This document shows, one piece after another, positions 5,059-13,605 of a stretch of DNA of 14,041 bases. The notes under the pieces were generated by a model that saw only the letters and a list, made by a program, of their open reading frames with translations, had not been told where the DNA came from and made no database searches. Positions within the stretch are counted from its first letter, which is position 1; the number at the start of each line of letters is the position of its first letter. Both the position numbers and the translations under genes were made by a program. This DNA comes from an uncultured Gammaproteobacteria bacterium (GTDB lineage: Bacteria; Pseudomonadota; Gammaproteobacteria; SZUA-140), in contig CALZIG010000126.1 of assembly GCA_945787585.1 (NCBI GenBank), forward strand, positions 1 through 14,041. The letters run 5' to 3'.

Positions 5059-5196
5059 AACTGCCCCAGGTGAGTACGAGACAAGGTGCAATGCCCCTGG
5101 GTGCGAAAGTCGGCGAAAAACGCGGAATTTACGAATAGTAAATGAGCACTTTTGAGCCGGGTTTCAACGCAGTATCGTGCCGCCTGAGGCAGTTTT
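5059..5196. repeat. MITE-like intergenic element with 14-bp inverted ends
   Basis: The left end AAAACTGCCCCAGG (5059-5072) is the reverse complement of the right end CCTGAGGCAGTTTT (5183-5196), with one mismatch. The ~110 bp between them hold a smaller perfect hairpin, TTTAC-GAATA-GTAAA (5128-5142), and no credible ORF. The internal sequence (GGCGAAAAACGCGGAATTTA and GGGTTTCAACGCAGTATCGT) resembles, from memory, a dispersed intergenic repeat seen in several gammaproteobacteria. That resemblance could not be checked here. It fills nearly all the space between the convergent topA and cysB genes and could act as a bidirectional terminator. The right end forms part of the cysB stop codon. No clear target-site duplication was seen. 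Confidence 0.6.
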
Positions 5197-6109
5197 ACAT
5201 CGCCGCGTCGACCGCCTTCCGATCCAGATGCGGCGCAAACATCTCAATAAAGGCGTAGTGAAAACCACGCAGGTAACTGCCGCGACGAATACCGATGCGC
5301 GTGGTGCTCGCCTCAAACAGATGCGCGGCATCAACGACGCCCAGCGTGCTATCGCGTTCTTCGTCATAGGCCATCGTCGCCACCAAACCAATTCCCAGCC
5401 CTAATTTCACGTACGTTTTGATCACATCCGCATCGAGCGCCGTCAGTACCATGTTCGGCCGCAGGCCCGCCGCTTCAAAGGCGCGGTTAATTCTGGACCG
5501 ACCCGCATAGGCAAAGTCATAAGTGACAATCGGATAACTGGCGATCGCCTCCAGCGTCAATGGTTCACAACCCAGAATGGGATGTCCGTGCGGCGCGATC
5601 ACGCTACGATTCCACTGGTAACAGGGCATCATCGCCAGCTCTTCATCCAGCTCGATCCCTTCGGTGGCGATGGCAAAATCTGCCACGCCCGACGCCGCCA
5701 GCTGTGCAATTTGTGTCGGACTCCCCTGATGCAGGTGCAGCCGCACACTGGGGTAGAGCTCGGTAAAACGCTTGATCACGGGCGGCAGCGCGTAGCAGGC
5801 TTGCGTATGGGTGGTCGCAATCGACAGACTACCACTCGCCTCGTGGGTAAACTCAAACCCTACCTGTTTGATATGCTCCAGCTCACGCAGCACCCGCTCG
5901 GCCATTGCCAGCACTGCGCGCCCCGGCTGCGTCACCCCGACTAAACGTTTACCGTTACGCTCAAAGATCTGCACATTGAGTTCATCTTCAAGCTGGCGGA
6001 TCTGATGACTGACGCCCGGCTGCGCGGTGTGCAACACCTCAGCCGCCGTCGAAATATTAAGCCCACACCGCTCAACCTCGCGGATATAACGCAATTGTTG
6101 AAAATTCAT
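5195..6109 (-). CDS. cysB: LysR-type regulator CysB (sulfur assimilation)
   Basis: CysB activates sulfate-assimilation genes, with N-acetylserine as inducer and sulfide or thiosulfate as anti-inducer. The 304-residue protein has a LysR winged helix-turn-helix (residues 1-60, MNFQQLRYIREVE) and an effector domain. The block IATTHTQACYALPPVIKRF carries T100, T102 and Q103, and FAIATE carries T149; these match ligand-pocket positions known in enterobacterial CysB. The position equivalent to Thr202 seems to be Ala. GGAGG lies about 8 bases before the ATG. E. coli CysB is 324 residues; this one stops right after VDAA plus a Met, so ~20 tail residues are missing and the TAA sits on the edge of the adjacent repeat element. 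It is divergent from the exporter and reductase genes. It could be the paralogue Cbl, but the context favours CysB. Confidence 0.92.
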   Translation of the reverse strand: MNFQQLRYIREVERCGLNISTAAEVLHTAQPGVSHQIRQLEDELNVQIFERNGKRLVGVTQPGRAVLAMAERVLRELEHIKQVGFEFTHEASGSLSIATTHTQACYALPPVIKRFTELYPSVRLHLHQGSPTQIAQLAASGVADFAIATEGIELDEELAMMPCYQWNRSVIAPHGHPILGCEPLTLEAIASYPIVTYDFAYAGRSRINRAFEAAGLRPNMVLTALDADVIKTYVKLGLGIGLVATMAYDEERDSTLGVVDAAHLFEASTTRIGIRRGSYLRGFHYAFIEMFAPHLDRKAVDAAM

Positions 6110-6286: not shown

Positions 6287-7072
6287 GTGGAATGGGCATA
6301 CATCATCTCGGGATTCGCCGTTGGCGCGCTCGTCGGACTGACCGGCGTTGGCGGTGGTTCGCTGATGACGCCGCTGTTGATCTTTGCCTTTAACGTGCCG
6401 CCGATCATCGCTGTCGGCACCGACCTGCTGTTTGCCGCGATCACCAAAACTGGCGGCATCCTGTCTCACAACCGGCGCGGCACCATCTGCTGGAATATCG
6501 TGGGCTGGCTCTCTGTCGGTAGTCTGCCGACGGCGATTCTCACCGTTTATATCCTCGACACGGTACGCGCCACTGCCCCGGATTTCCAGATCGACACACT
6601 CGTCAACACCTCGTTAGGGGCCGCGCTGATGTTGACGGCACTCGCGCTGTACCTTAAAAATACCATTCAAAACACAGGGCAAAGCATTAAAAAACTGCTG
6701 CCAAACTGGAAACAATGGCGTACACCCGTTACCATATTGGCCGGCGTATTATTAGGGGTGCTGGTGCCTATTACCTCCATCGGTGCGGGAGCATTTGGCG
6801 CGGCTATATTGTTATTTTTATATCCATCGCTACCCACTATGCGTATCGTGGGTACCGACCTGGCACATGCAGTGCCGCTCACAGCGGTCGCCGGACTGGG
6901 ACATATGCAGATGGGCACGGTCGATTTCACCCTGCTGGGCTATCTGCTGATAGGCTCACTGCCGGGGATCTATGTGGGTAGCCACATAAGCACCATCATT
7001 CCGGAGCGGATTATGCGTCCGATCCTCGCAACTATGCTGTTGCTAATTGGTCTTAGATTTGTAGTCGCCTGA
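6287..7072 (+). CDS. TauE/SafE-family sulfite (sulfur anion) exporter
   Basis: This 261-residue inner-membrane protein has about seven to eight hydrophobic segments. It shows the two-fold internal repeat of the TauE/SafE (DUF81) family: LTGVGGGSLMTPLL ... AVGTDLLFAAITKTGG (residues 18-57) and ITSIGAGAFGAAILLF ... IVGTDLAHAVPLT (162-199). Members move sulfite, sulfoacetate and other small sulfur anions, but direction and substrate are often unproven. Its position between cysB and the sulfite reductase gene suggests sulfite efflux, or sulfur-anion transport in assimilation. The GTG start at 6287 gives the usual family N-terminus (MEWAYIISGFAVGALVG), although the Shine-Dalgarno is weak. It is followed by the reductase gene after 61 bases, probably in one transcript. 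Confidence 0.9.
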   Translation: MEWAYIISGFAVGALVGLTGVGGGSLMTPLLIFAFNVPPIIAVGTDLLFAAITKTGGILSHNRRGTICWNIVGWLSVGSLPTAILTVYILDTVRATAPDFQIDTLVNTSLGAALMLTALALYLKNTIQNTGQSIKKLLPNWKQWRTPVTILAGVLLGVLVPITSIGAGAFGAAILLFLYPSLPTMRIVGTDLAHAVPLTAVAGLGHMQMGTVDFTLLGYLLIGSLPGIYVGSHISTIIPERIMRPILATMLLLIGLRFVVA

Positions 7073-7133: not shown

Positions 7134-9431
7134 ATGACGGTTATAACGCAATCATTAACCAATGACGAAGAGATCGATCGCTACCAGGAGACGCTGCAAG
7201 CGTACCTTGATGAAAAGATTGATGCCGATCGCTTTCAATCGATGCGCCTGCAACAGGGCATCTATGGCCAGCGCCAGGAAGGAGTCAACATGGTTCGCAT
7301 CAAGGTGCCCGGTGGCCACTTTAATGCCGAGCAGGCAGAGCATGTCGCCGATGTTGTTGAGCAGTTCTCACAACACGGCACCGCGCACGTCACCACGCGC
7401 CAGTCGATTCAGGTCCACTACATCCCGCTGGAGAAGACGCCGGATGCGATCCGTCTGCTCGCCAAATCAAACATGACCTCACGCGAGGCGTGCAATAACA
7501 CCGTGCGTAACATCTCGGGCTGCCCACTCGCCGGGGTCTGCCCACATGAACATACCGACATCACCCCAATTTTGGGCAACGTCACGCAGCATTTTCTGCG
7601 TTACCCGCTCACACAGCACCTGCCACGTAAGTTCAAGATGAGCTTCTCTGGCTGTGAGTCCGACTGCGCACAGGGGATGATCCACGATCTCGGCGTGATC
7701 GCCACCAAAAAAGATGGCGTGCCCGGTTTCAAGATTCTGGCCGGCGGTGGTCTTGGCCATAAACCGCGTCAGGCGATTACCGTCGAGGAATTCGTCGAAG
7801 AGCCGCAACTGCTGGCATCGATGGAAGCGATCATCTCACTGCATAACCGCTACTCCAATCGCCGTATGCGCGCTAAATCACGCATTAAGTTCCTGGTCGA
7901 TAAGTTCGGTGCAGACGGCTTTATTGAAAAGTATAAAGAAGAACTCGCGCGTACTGTCACTGCGCTTGCCGATAAAACCCTGCCCGCCGCAGAGTGGGTT
8001 GAACCTAAGGCCGGCAGCGGGCACAACAACCCCGGCTCACCCCGTGCGGTGCTGGCGCAGAAGCAGGCAGGACTCAACATCTTCCCGATCGCGATTCCGA
8101 TTGGCGATGTCAGCGTGGCGCAACTGCGCGGTCTGGCCGCATTGATGCGTACTGAAGGACTGCAAGACATCCGAACCACACAGGATCAAAACCTGATGCT
8201 GGTCGGGGTTCCTGATGCAAAAATAGAAACGGTACGCGCTGCCATTGCTGCCCTCGGTCTCAAAGAACCGGTGACGGGGGATGACGTTGTCGCCTGTCCC
8301 GGCACTTCAACCTGCCGCCTCGGCATCACCTCGTCCACCATCCTCGGCCCTAAACTGAGCGGCGGCGAGCATGACCTGCGCATCCGCGTCAGTGGTTGCC
8401 ACAACGGTTGCGCGCAGCCCGAGACCGGCGATATCGGCATCTATGGCGAAGGTAAACGGAAGCACGGCAAACTGATCCCCCATTATCAGATGTATCTCGG
8501 TGGTGATGGCCGTCATGGCGGCGCAATCGCAATCAAAGGCCCCACGGTCCCCTCTGCCCGCATCGAATCGGCGATCGAAAAAGTGAAGCTCACCTACACC
8601 ACCGACAGTGCCAACGCGCAGTCTTTCTTTGACTGGGCGCAGAGTAAAGACACCGCCTATTTCAAAGATCTGCTGGATGATATTGCCAACATCAACGAAG
8701 AAGATGTGCCAGAGGTACTCAATGACCACGGCGATGTCACTGACTTTAAGGTACTGCAACTCGGCGGTGGCGAATGTTCCGGCGCGGCGCAGGAGACGGT
8801 CGCGGCCAACTTTTCAGAAGCTGCCACTGAACGGACCTATCGCAACGCCTTTCTGCTGCAACGTAAATATGACGAAGCGCTGGAATGCGCGATCGAAGTG
8901 GGCCGTCGCGTCGGACAATCACTGCTGTTCCTCGCCGGTGAAAAACCCCTCGATGACCTGCAGGCGATCGGTAAGTTGTTGCAAACGGCGCAACCAACAC
9001 AGGCCCATCTTGGCCAGCAGATCGCTGAGTTTGGTGAATTGATCAACGAATTACAGGCCAACTTTGACGATGCCAGCTTTACTGAACTGGCGCAGGCGAT
9101 GGACCACTGGACGATCGAAGCCGCCAACGCCTGTCAGACCATCGACCAGCAGCTCGACCTCAGTGCGTCGATTCCGAGAGTGCCAGCCGCCACATCCGAA
9201 AAGGCCACCGCTGAAGTGATCGATCTCAGCACCTTCGGTTGCCCGCTGCATTACATCAAGGCGCGTAACGAGCTGCGTAAATACCCTGCCGGTGAAGTGA
9301 TTGAATTCCTTTTCACCGCCGGTGAACCCTCGGAACAGGTCTCTACCAGCCTCGCAAGCGAAGGCCATGAGATCCTCAATACCGAGCAGCAGGGTGACAA
9401 GACACGCATCAAGGTTAAAAAGGTAGGCTAA
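7134..9431 (+). CDS. cysI: Sulfite reductase hemoprotein with TusA-like C-terminal domain
   Basis: Predicted to reduce sulfite to sulfide by six electrons using siroheme coupled to [4Fe-4S]. I start at ATG 7134, since AGGAG at 7121-7125 is 8 bases away; a GTG one codon earlier is possible. Of 765 residues, the first half (about 50-300) has VTTRQSIQVHY (R89), RNISGCP (R125) and LPRKFK (K166, K168), matching the sulfite-binding basic residues of E. coli CysI. The second half (about 313-500) has the expected cluster cysteines C388/C394 and C422/C426. Unusually, the first half also has a quartet, C130/C136 and C174/C178. Residues ~510-690 are helical with a GGGECSGAA motif (C548) and not recognised. 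The end (~694-765) is TusA/SirA-like with FGCPLHY (C703) in place of CPxP. Nitrite as substrate is possible, but cysH next door favours sulfite. No flavoprotein partner (cysJ) is visible. Confidence 0.92.
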   Translation: MTVITQSLTNDEEIDRYQETLQAYLDEKIDADRFQSMRLQQGIYGQRQEGVNMVRIKVPGGHFNAEQAEHVADVVEQFSQHGTAHVTTRQSIQVHYIPLEKTPDAIRLLAKSNMTSREACNNTVRNISGCPLAGVCPHEHTDITPILGNVTQHFLRYPLTQHLPRKFKMSFSGCESDCAQGMIHDLGVIATKKDGVPGFKILAGGGLGHKPRQAITVEEFVEEPQLLASMEAIISLHNRYSNRRMRAKSRIKFLVDKFGADGFIEKYKEELARTVTALADKTLPAAEWVEPKAGSGHNNPGSPRAVLAQKQAGLNIFPIAIPIGDVSVAQLRGLAALMRTEGLQDIRTTQDQNLMLVGVPDAKIETVRAAIAALGLKEPVTGDDVVACPGTSTCRLGITSSTILGPKLSGGEHDLRIRVSGCHNGCAQPETGDIGIYGEGKRKHGKLIPHYQMYLGGDGRHGGAIAIKGPTVPSARIESAIEKVKLTYTTDSANAQSFFDWAQSKDTAYFKDLLDDIANINEEDVPEVLNDHGDVTDFKVLQLGGGECSGAAQETVAANFSEAATERTYRNAFLLQRKYDEALECAIEVGRRVGQSLLFLAGEKPLDDLQAIGKLLQTAQPTQAHLGQQIAEFGELINELQANFDDASFTELAQAMDHWTIEAANACQTIDQQLDLSASIPRVPAATSEKATAEVIDLSTFGCPLHYIKARNELRKYPAGEVIEFLFTAGEPSEQVSTSLASEGHEILNTEQQGDKTRIKVKKVG

Positions 9432-9495: not shown

Positions 9496-9545
9496 ATTTT
9501 ATTTTTAATCGGCCATTTATATTGGCCCTTTTGAGGATAAGACTC

Positions 9546-10250
9546 ATGAGTTCGGAATCGAGACTGGACGCAACGTTAGAAGCAAAGATCGAACAGAGCA
9601 AACAACGCCTGATCGAGATCGCCCACGACTACGCCCCCGCCACCTTTGCCAACAGCTTCGGTGCGGAAGATATGGTCGCCACCGATCTGATCTGCAAGTT
9701 CGCACCAGAAATTGAGATCTTCAGCCTCGATACCGGTCGCCTACCGCAGGAGACCCATACAGTGATCCAGCAGGCGATGGCCCACTACCAGCGCGAGTTC
9801 GTCATCTATGCGCCAGAGAGCAGCGACGTGGAGGCCTACGTCCGTAAAAACGGCCCGGATGCCTTTTATGATTCCGTCGAGCTGCGCAAGGCGTGCTGCC
9901 GCATCCGCAAAGTGCTGCCACTGCAGCGCGCTTTAAAGAACAAAAAGGCGTGGGTCACCGGCATGCGGGCCGAGCAGTCACCGACGCGTGGCAAACTGCC
10001 TGAATCGGAATGGGACGAAGGCAATGGGCTGCAAAAATTCAACCCGCTGAGCAGCTGGAGCAATAAAGAGGTGTGGGCCTACATTCGTTACTTCGACGTG
10101 CCGTACAACAAACTGCACGACCAGCACTACGCCAGCATCGGCTGCGCGCCCTGTACCCGCGCGATTGCGGTGGGGGAAGATATTCGCGCCGGACGCTGGT
10201 GGTGGGAAGACCCTGACAATAAAGAGTGCGGCTTGCACGTTAAGAAATAA
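9546..10250 (+). CDS. cysH: Adenylylsulfate (APS) reductase, Fe-S type CysH
   Basis: This enzyme reduces activated sulfate to sulfite with thioredoxin or glutathione-type electrons, in the cytoplasm. The 234-residue protein has the PP-loop-like nucleotide region FANSFGAEDM (about 32-41), LDTGRLPQET, the KACCRIRK motif (C117, C118), GCAPCTR (C200, C203) and the catalytic KECGLH tail (C228). The CC...CxxC set binds a [4Fe-4S] cluster and marks APS reductases; E. coli PAPS reductase lacks it. APS is therefore the likely substrate, although databases often name such proteins phosphoadenylylsulfate reductase. The ATG at 9546 has GAGG at 9533-9536; the upstream TTG at 9522 would swallow this Shine-Dalgarno and is rejected. 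It supplies sulfite to the reductase encoded just upstream. Confidence 0.95.
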   Translation: MSSESRLDATLEAKIEQSKQRLIEIAHDYAPATFANSFGAEDMVATDLICKFAPEIEIFSLDTGRLPQETHTVIQQAMAHYQREFVIYAPESSDVEAYVRKNGPDAFYDSVELRKACCRIRKVLPLQRALKNKKAWVTGMRAEQSPTRGKLPESEWDEGNGLQKFNPLSSWSNKEVWAYIRYFDVPYNKLHDQHYASIGCAPCTRAIAVGEDIRAGRWWWEDPDNKECGLHVKK

Positions 10251-11442: not shown

Positions 11443-11517
11443 CCGCCCACGCTCCCTATGTATCTGCTATCGTTTACCAGCCAGTCCTTTGGCTCAATAC
11501 AGCAGCGCGGTGTGAAC

Positions 11518-12540
11518 ATGGCACGCATCAACCCATTAAAATCGTTAGGCGTACTGCGCCCTGCATTCATCATGGCACTGATACTGTTACTTGCTGCGTG
11601 TGCCACATCTCGTCCCCAAACCAGTACGCTGCAAAATAGCAACGCAGATGCCACTGCTTATATCGTTAACGACCAGACCACGGATTTCGCCCGTTTCGCG
11701 CCACTTTTTATCGCCGAACAGACAGACAAATCGCTTAACCGCATTGGCACACCGCGCGCCCGTCTCGACCAGCACGGCAACATACGCATCGGTATCGACG
11801 CCAATAAACCAACGGTTTACGTTGACCGTCAAACTTTCACCACTGCCACCGGCCGTTACACCAACCTGATCTACCGCATTCATTTCCAAGAGACACCTTT
11901 CAGCCTGTTTCCGTTCCACATTACCGCTGGCAACAACAACGGTTTGTTGACAGTCGTAACACTGAATGCAAGTAACAGGCCGATTTTATTAACAATGGTG
12001 CATACTTGCGGCTGTTTCCTCGCGATGGTGCCGACCCAGTATCTGCCCGCTTCCGCCTACCCCGCTGACTGGGAAACCGACTCGCAATGGATTTACGGCA
12101 TGACGCTGCCGGGCCTGTTAGAACTTCCAGAGCCATTGGATGCCGACAGCCGCATCGCGATATTTCTTAAAGATGAAACCCATCGGGTGATGGACGTCCA
12201 AATTTTGTCGCAGGCAGAAATCACCCAGCATTTTCACAACGAAACACTGGGTATCGCCCCGGTTGATGAACTGATGAACCTCCCCGTAGGCGATGGCACC
12301 ACTTCATATTTCGAAACCGAAGGCAGCCGCAAAGGCTACGTGAAGGGATCACACAAACCGTTTGAACGGTTGTTGATTAGCTGGTGGGCATTAGACTGGC
12401 GCGTGGGTGAAGATAAAGCCTACGGAGACAAAAATGACACTGGGACCGTTTTTTATACCAGCCTCAAACCGTGGAACCGGCAAGCGTCGGATATGTGGCC
12501 GTTTGCAGAGTTTTTAACTTTTTGGGGATGGGGGTTGTGA
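11518..12540 (+). CDS. Putative lipoprotein of unknown function
   Basis: I do not recognise the family. The ATG at 11518 gives a clean lipoprotein signal: charged MARINPLK, a hydrophobic stretch, then the lipobox LLAAC with Cys28. An in-frame ATG at 11458 would add 20 residues before the signal and is less likely, although the Shine-Dalgarno at 11518 is weak. The mature part (~312 residues) is rich in aromatic residues and beta-type sequence, with HTCGC (H162, C164, C166) in the middle and a Trp-rich end (ISWWALDWRVGEDKAYGD; FWGWGL). Residue 29 is Ala rather than Asp, so outer-membrane anchoring is the default expectation. The HTCGC motif could bind a metal or form a disulfide. It is divergent from the diguanylate cyclase gene, 75 bases apart. 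Confidence 0.8.
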   Translation: MARINPLKSLGVLRPAFIMALILLLAACATSRPQTSTLQNSNADATAYIVNDQTTDFARFAPLFIAEQTDKSLNRIGTPRARLDQHGNIRIGIDANKPTVYVDRQTFTTATGRYTNLIYRIHFQETPFSLFPFHITAGNNNGLLTVVTLNASNRPILLTMVHTCGCFLAMVPTQYLPASAYPADWETDSQWIYGMTLPGLLELPEPLDADSRIAIFLKDETHRVMDVQILSQAEITQHFHNETLGIAPVDELMNLPVGDGTTSYFETEGSRKGYVKGSHKPFERLLISWWALDWRVGEDKAYGDKNDTGTVFYTSLKPWNRQASDMWPFAEFLTFWGWGL

Positions 12541-12786: not shown

Positions 12787-12790
12787 ATGA
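12731..12790 (+). CDS. Possible 19-codon leader ORF overlapping the orphan gene
   Basis: ATG at 12731 opens a frame MKGLRHTSAYLTVKGQTEI ending in TGA at 12788-12790. The stop overlaps the next gene's ATG as ATGA, the classic arrangement for translational coupling. AAAAAGG ends 10 bases before its start. The downstream gene has only a weak, distant AAAGG of its own, so ribosomes arriving from this ORF could initiate there. It resembles no known leader peptide, and a chance ORF of this size in AT-rich DNA is quite possible. Confidence 0.3.
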   Translation: MKGLRHTSAYLTVKGQTEI

Positions 12791-13605
12791 ATCAAATTAT
12801 AGATATAGACCTAAGTAAAAAATTAGAAATAACAATAAATAATACAAAGCCAGTTGGGCTTGAAGATTTGTCTTTATCGCTTTTAGCATTCAACCATCAA
12901 TTTCATAAGTTTATTGAATCTGAAACAAACAAAGAAACAGAAATTGGTACTGAACTGTTAATAAAAGAAGTGAGAAGTGGTTCAATTATAGTTGAACTTG
13001 TTTCACAGGCTGCCCCTATTGTTCCTTTGCTATGGGAAGGAGGATCATTACTCCAATGGTCAAAAGTTGTTCAAGACACATGTAAGTGGCTTTTGGGTAA
13101 AATTGATACACCACCTAAAAGCCATACAAAACAAGATCTACAGGAGTGGAATAACATTGTAGAGCCAGTTGCGAAAGACAATGGGTCGCAAATTAATATC
13201 AATGTTTCTGATAACGCAAAAATAATAAATCAAATCACTATAAATTCTACTGAGGCTAATGCGATGCAAAATCGTATTAGCCATTTAATTGAAGATATTG
13301 ACACTCCAGAAGACAATATTCATAAGCGCAAGGTAATGTATTGGTATCAAACTAAATTTGATCCAAACTCCGATACTGGAAATAGAGCAATAATTGATGA
13401 TCTATCGAAGACTGGCCTGAAAGTCATATTTGAAAATAACGCGGTGAAAGATGAGATGCTTCACTCAGATCCAAAATTTGGCAAACCTTGGCATGAACTA
13501 GCATATGTGGTTGATGTTGAAGTACAAACAGTTCGCGGCGCTCCAAAAATGTATACGGTTCTCAAGTATTATCCAGAGTATACATTCGACCCAGAAGCGG
13601 AATAA
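12787..13605 (+). CDS. Hypothetical protein in AT-rich island
   Basis: I do not recognise a function. The 272-residue product has a helical, acidic N-terminus (residues 1-55), then LLIKEVRSGSIIVELVS (57-73) leading into a moderately hydrophobic stretch to about 104 (AAPIVPLLWEGG). An Asn/Ile-rich segment follows (about 133-160), then a beta-type C-terminal half rich in aromatics (VMYWYQTKF; VLKYYPEYTF). The xVRSGSIxVEL pattern occurs, from memory, in uncharacterised proteins of accessory regions. There is no signal peptide and no clear membrane anchor. Codon use is strongly A/T-ending (AAA, ATA, AAT), unlike every neighbour, which points to horizontal transfer. A role in phage defence or as a cargo gene is only a guess from context. 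Confidence 0.75.
   Translation: MNQIIDIDLSKKLEITINNTKPVGLEDLSLSLLAFNHQFHKFIESETNKETEIGTELLIKEVRSGSIIVELVSQAAPIVPLLWEGGSLLQWSKVVQDTCKWLLGKIDTPPKSHTKQDLQEWNNIVEPVAKDNGSQININVSDNAKIINQITINSTEANAMQNRISHLIEDIDTPEDNIHKRKVMYWYQTKFDPNSDTGNRAIIDDLSKTGLKVIFENNAVKDEMLHSDPKFGKPWHELAYVVDVEVQTVRGAPKMYTVLKYYPEYTFDPEAE

Follow-up and report, generated by a model that had tools for sequence, protein, structure and literature searches.

The window analysed here, a 14,041-nucleotide stretch from an uncultured gammaproteobacterium (contig CALZIG010000126.1), encodes a tandem siroheme nitrite/sulfite reductase, P0001, in which the four cysteines typical of a siroheme-linked [4Fe-4S] cluster are complete in both halves of the chain. 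Better-known relatives keep these cysteines in one half only, whereas our results show that a whole group of bacteria has both sets, making the doubled quartet a trait of an entire protein family, beyond a single protein. With somewhat better than even confidence, we favor the view that P0001 is an assimilatory sulfite reductase with one catalytic centre in its C-terminal half and a non-catalytic [4Fe-4S] centre, probably including a siroheme, in its N-terminal half.

The open reading frame of P0001 begins with ATG and ends with a stop codon after 765 residues (Table 1). Pfam families PF01077 and PF03460 each match two stretches of the protein, so that the chain contains two NIR_SIR_ferr–NIR_SIR units. 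The two halves are still detectably homologous in a two-sequence blastp comparison (E 1e-5) and their quartets align column by column, in agreement with the ancient gene duplication proposed in a first-pass annotation of this DNA, which had also reported both quartets; all eight cysteines are present with the spacing it described. Moreover, when 33 N-terminal and 33 C-terminal halves are aligned with AsrC and NirB, C130/C136/C174/C178 and C388/C394/C422/C426 fall in the four columns that hold the cysteines of these two proteins. P0001 has the two units, the C-terminal CX5CXnCX3C motif and the four basic N-terminal residues of a tandem assimilatory siroheme reductase. Of two ancestral siroheme–cluster sites, such enzymes are described as retaining a single one (PMC10229431), whereas the N-terminal quartet of P0001 is complete at the sequence level. 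The protein stays below the NCBIfam cut-offs for the CysI equivalog TIGR02041 (101.5 of 756.55 bits), NirA PRK09567 (220.4 of 523 bits) and ferredoxin–nitrite reductase PRK09566 (219.8 of 594 bits), and below those of the DsrA and DsrB families (28.7 of 392.85 and 33.7 of 341.5 bits, respectively).

The N-terminal quartet is not a chance occurrence, because all four cysteines occur in 82 of the 84 sequences assigned to the family (the one from the window and the best matches from our searches, 77 of them distinct). The count is 65 of 67 once 90%-identical sequences are removed, and the quartet is kept down to about 32–38% identity. The C-terminal quartet is complete in 83 of the 84 rows, the remaining one ending before it, and in all 26 tandem reductases of other types, none of which has a complete N-terminal quartet. 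The alignment thus bears out the earlier statement that normally only the C-terminal half keeps its cysteines. The 26 comprise 11 P. aeruginosa-type, six E. coli-type and five NirA-type proteins, L082 and the proteins of Persicobacter, Chlorohelix and Cetobacterium; these type labels are our own, taken from annotated members and tree clades. Sampling was non-random, the family rows being the best-scoring ones and all sequences except those of Persicobacter, Chlorohelix and Cetobacterium coming from one phylum. As for the two exceptions within the family, L025 reads W/G/C/C at the N-terminal quartet and lies on a contig that begins at query residue 128, and L092 reads A/C/C/T in an otherwise full-length frame. 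The spacing of the two quartets, previously called identical, is so in P0001 but not family-wide, since the second N-terminal pair is C-x4-C in six of the 84 sequences (L053–L058, a related subfamily). Overall conservation, by comparison, says nothing about a second site: the N-terminal half is the more conserved one in 761 of 780 quartet-bearing pairs, but likewise in 54 of 55 P. aeruginosa-type, six of six NirA-type and eight of ten E. coli-type pairs, and we therefore rejected this surplus as an indicator.

The basic residues of the N-terminal half suggest where sulfite may bind. In MjFsr, sulfite is bound by R355, R423, K460 and K462, while R388 is an arginine of the type found in assimilatory sulfite reductases (PMC10229431). 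Judged by spacing against the residue numbers reported there, R55, R89, R125, C130, K166, K168 and C178 of P0001 match MjFsr R355, R388, R423, C428, K460, K462 and C472, with one interval differing by four residues and two by one. The first-pass annotation had assigned sulfite binding to R89, R125, K166 and K168; three of these stand, but the fourth residue is, on the basis of spacing, the R355 equivalent R55 rather than R89, which pairs with R388. In CysI and DsrAB, the unit bearing the basic residues stands opposite the catalytic cluster. Given the opposite-unit layout of DsrAB, the catalytic centre of P0001 would combine the C-terminal cluster with the N-terminal basic residues. At the columns corresponding to the four sulfite-binding residues, the C-terminal half of P0001 reads P, D, D and R, which speaks against reduction of sulfite at a second site; over the 33 C-terminal halves, the common letters in the first three columns are non-basic.

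We thus propose that sulfite would be bound by R55, R125, K166 and K168 and reduced at a siroheme–[4Fe-4S] centre held, by homology, by C388, C394, C422 and C426. The N-terminal cysteines C130, C136, C174 and C178 would hold a second [4Fe-4S] centre, probably along with a siroheme. Because the C-terminal positions facing it lack the basic set, this centre is not expected to reduce sulfite and may instead stabilize the fold or hold and relay electrons, like the structural centre of DsrA. We infer the cluster, the siroheme and the structural or electron-holding role of this site from the sequence. The suggestion, already made in the first-pass annotation, of a canonical site plus a second siroheme–cluster site gains support from the conserved second quartet, the N-terminal sulfite-binding set and the largely non-basic C-terminal pocket. 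Several observations weigh against it, however. The counterpart of N424, which lies beside the C-terminal cluster, is S176 in the N-terminal half. The predicted model has middling confidence at the N-terminal cysteines (10-residue means of 66, 81 and 74), drops below 50 at residues 119–122 and 162–164, and reaches 54 in the C-terminal block 391–400. The K168 column contains R in 15 of the 33 C-terminal halves, including that of P0001, and K in two, so some positive charge is present in the pocket. The N-terminal site has been dispensable at least once, because L092 has lost two of its cysteines yet retains an otherwise full-length frame. Furthermore, the family-specific K57 and R117-E118-A119, considered as siroheme ligands linked to the quartet, were rejected and provide no evidence for a second siroheme, because both persist in the quartet-free Persicobacter protein. 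Finally, the 13 genomes behind the DsrA and CysJ negatives reported below are partly incomplete (86% for the window's own), and two of them gave CysJ matches below the cut-off.

The serine at position 176 would also suit an N-terminal half that holds a [4Fe-4S] cluster without siroheme and uses it to relay or store electrons for the catalytic centre. The quartet conserved in 82 of 84 sequences agrees with this idea, as do the facing C-terminal residues (P, D, D and R in P0001), most of which lie outside the basic set. We consider it a credible minority view, because the CX5CXnCX3C layout is described as the siroheme-coupled cluster motif of assimilatory enzymes and Fsr (PMC10229431) and the quartet shares its columns with AsrC and NirB. 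The presence of a sulfur-carrier (TusA) domain in P0001 could alternatively hint that the N-terminal cysteines dispense with an iron–sulfur cluster and serve zinc binding, disulfides or a persulfide instead. This proposal is improbable, as the four residues are co-conserved at cluster positions down to the low identities given above and their columns match cluster ligands. It is still harder to believe that both centres are catalytic, for instance one acting on sulfite and the other on nitrite or another substrate. Both quartets are complete, nitrite is also reduced by many sulfite reductases (PMC10229431) and the C-terminal half contains the basic residues R416 and R347, but its anion-binding equivalents are P, D, D and R, the first three of these columns are commonly non-basic across C-terminal halves, and a NirB frame, albeit one with an in-frame stop, exists elsewhere in the genome.

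The family is present in many gammaproteobacterial groups, as judged from 274 genomes searched at class level and 398 at phylum level (81 with E <= 1e-60, 30 loci fetched). It occurs in Nitrosomonas (L013–L019; six named strains or isolates and one metagenome-assembled genome), and in group f198 both the quartet and the TusA cysteine are present in all 24 fetched members at 34–37% identity. A first family alignment covered 24 of 26 loci (without L023 and L025), and the full-length tree 66 of 108 rows, the short L023 and L025 and rows of at least 80% identity being left out; the tree of halves used 33 of these 66 (Cetobacterium, Chlorohelix and L077 were dropped from 36) together with AsrC and NirB, with DsrA and DsrB (L085) excluded. 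Both are quick trees without bootstrap and with long-branch warnings. The quartet needs three changes on the full-length tree. N- and C-terminal halves separate in the tree of halves, where AsrC and NirB group with the former. In the N-half tree, the Persicobacter protein is nested within the quartet clade (starred support), but in the full-length tree it sits on a long branch at the base of this clade, at an open fork; L092 lies inside the clade. Retention of the quartet with several losses appears simpler than its regain, because single-domain enzymes and C-terminal halves have the cysteines. That the quartet was regained, and not kept from the duplicated ancestor, would agree with the tree of halves, whose root is unresolved: N-terminal halves of the NirA, E. 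coli and P. aeruginosa types, all lacking the quartet, branch outside the family there. We nevertheless deem regain unlikely: four cysteines would have to reappear at ancestral positions, where the single-domain AsrC and NirB have them, and both the partial loss in L092 and the Persicobacter placement in the N-half tree lie within the clade. With all eight ligands found in a clade that includes cultured Nitrosomonas, the assumed fused two-site intermediate becomes directly testable, and the clade could help to show what purpose a non-catalytic siroheme centre serves, a question it shares with DsrA.

Among the nearest known systems, DsrAB has one catalytic and one structural siroheme–cluster site (PMC10229431), and P0001 has the cysteines for two. 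The parallel drawn by the first-pass annotation holds at the level of residues, with DsrA providing basic residues and the structural cofactor and DsrB the catalytic one. However, DsrAB consists of two chains with ferredoxin domains and has the cluster motif CXnCCX3C in DsrB (PMC10229431), unlike P0001 with its single chain, CX5CXnCX3C in both halves and assimilatory context. The N-terminal half carries the Fsr-type residue set described above at near-equal spacing and shares its quartet columns with AsrC, but Fsr and AsrC have only one reductase domain each, with inserts of the ferredoxin type, and depend on different electron donors (PMC10229431). P0001 is expected to catalyze the same reaction as E. 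coli-type CysI and shares its cysH and cysB context, but the E. coli-type rows (L076–L080 and L083, labeled from their tree clade) lack the N-terminal quartet. Where P0001 has only cysteines, the five rows of NirA type have SDGS, SDGA or TDAG, and tobacco nitrite reductase 3b0h aligns with N, D, S and Y; the match of NirA and the plant nitrite and sulfite reductases to P0001 ends before its HEPN-like and TusA parts. The Persicobacter nitrite/sulfite reductase WP_338398912.1 has a similar reductase portion and a C-terminal extension with an ECAG motif, but reads S/D/S/S at the N-terminal quartet, has no TusA domain and adjoins siroheme synthesis genes. Among the open-access papers listed in our searches, no title or opening of an abstract pointed to a quartet in both halves or to a sulfite reductase–HEPN–TusA protein, subscription papers being mostly uncovered; the accessible portion of PMC3448663 mentions neither.

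The first-pass annotation captured the quartets of P0001 but passed over its HEPN-like and TusA domains and the spread of the doubled quartet through a family. PF01206 exceeds its cut-off in the TusA region, and C703 is conserved in 53 of the 54 rows covering that position; in what we take to be the CPxP motif of TusA, the second proline is H in P0001. C548 (codon 8775–8777), in the linker before the HEPN-like domain, is a cysteine in all 82 family rows covering it and in Persicobacter. The linker is modeled with low confidence and reads GECSG or GECAG with or without TusA or the N-terminal quartet. One possibility is that the HEPN-like/TusA tail accepts the product sulfur, and by analogy with the DsrC arm we would guess that C548 acts as a sulfur acceptor. 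Zero-valent sulfur, described as the direct product of four assimilatory reductases in PMC13188885, in whose main text TusA does not occur, would suit such a tail. It is tempting to speculate, though we think it rather unlikely, that the clade represents a living single-chain DsrAB with two siroheme–[4Fe-4S] centres inherited from a fused ancestor, one of which was lost by other assimilatory enzymes, and that its TusA-bearing members pass the product sulfur on as persulfide via C548 and C703 and not as free sulfide, much as DsrC takes sulfur from DsrAB. The second site is not coupled to TusA as a rule, an idea we rejected because Nitrosomonas rows have the quartet without TusA; their copies stop before this domain and are then followed by cysH, and certain other family members lack the tail as well. 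A single case of joint loss was seen in L092, a natural partial loss in which two N-terminal cysteines are gone and C703 is replaced by L. At the reductase stop of L009 (near 8073) and L011 (near 8064), the TusA part is found in a different reading frame, through either an assembly error or a real split.

In the window, the genes follow the order topA, cysB (on the minus strand), the TauE-type gene, the reductase gene and cysH (Table 1). A cysH match is absent in L010, L011, L026 and L029 despite room downstream, and the Persicobacter locus has no cysB, cysH or TauE-type gene. Among 13 same-family genomes, the window's own included and several of them incomplete, no match over the cut-off was obtained for DsrA, for CysJ (two gave weaker matches) or for CysI, whose matches were partial and mostly to the P0001-type protein. 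Based on the cysB/TauE-type/cysH synteny and these negatives, P0001 is most likely the cell's assimilatory sulfite reductase, probably making sulfide for cysteine. Because CysJ is not detected and a flavin-reductase-like gene lies beyond cysH in L024, ferredoxin is probably the electron donor.

Table 1. Features of the window. Neighbor counts refer to 30 loci, certain contigs being too short to show cysB, cysH or the TauE-type gene.
Feature	Position	Strand	Basis and remarks
cysB-type regulator, divergent	5195..6109	-	NCBIfam; 23/30 loci
TauE/SafE-type transporter gene, upstream of reductase gene	6287..7072	+	Pfam PF01925; 14/30 loci
Tandem siroheme nitrite/sulfite reductase with C-terminal HEPN-like and TusA domains (P0001), 765 aa	7134..9431	+	Open reading frame, Pfam, fold match
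N-terminal reductase half, residues ~44-275, NIR_SIR_ferr + NIR_SIR; R55, R89, R125, K166, K168	7263..7958	+	Pfam, alignment, Fsr residue numbers
N-half cluster motif, pair 1: C130-x5-C136	7521..7541	+	Sequence; conservation
N-half cluster motif, pair 2: C174-x3-C178	7653..7667	+	Sequence; conservation
C-terminal reductase half, residues ~305-500, predicted catalytic cluster half	8046..8633	+	Pfam, fold match, alignment
C-half cluster motif, pair 1: C388-x5-C394	8295..8315	+	Sequence; conservation
C-half cluster motif, pair 2: C422-x3-C426	8397..8411	+	Sequence; conservation
Linker motif G546-E547-C548-S549	8769..8780	+	Alignment
HEPN-like helical domain, residues ~552-669	8787..9140	+	
TusA domain, residues 695-763, with C703	9216..9422	+	PF01206 E 1.4e-11; fold match E. 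coli TusA, YeeD
cysH, adenylyl sulfate/phosphoadenylyl sulfate (APS/PAPS) reductase, just downstream of reductase gene	9522..10250	+	NCBIfam, Pfam; 23/30 loci

Three further open reading frames of the window, 58–888, 11458–12540 and 12787–13605 (276, 360 and 272 aa), have no Pfam match at E 0.001. The NirB frame with the in-frame stop is located on contig C107 of the window's own genome (L002, G000), where it adjoins NirD-like and nitrate reductase-like frames, as labeled by reading their translations.
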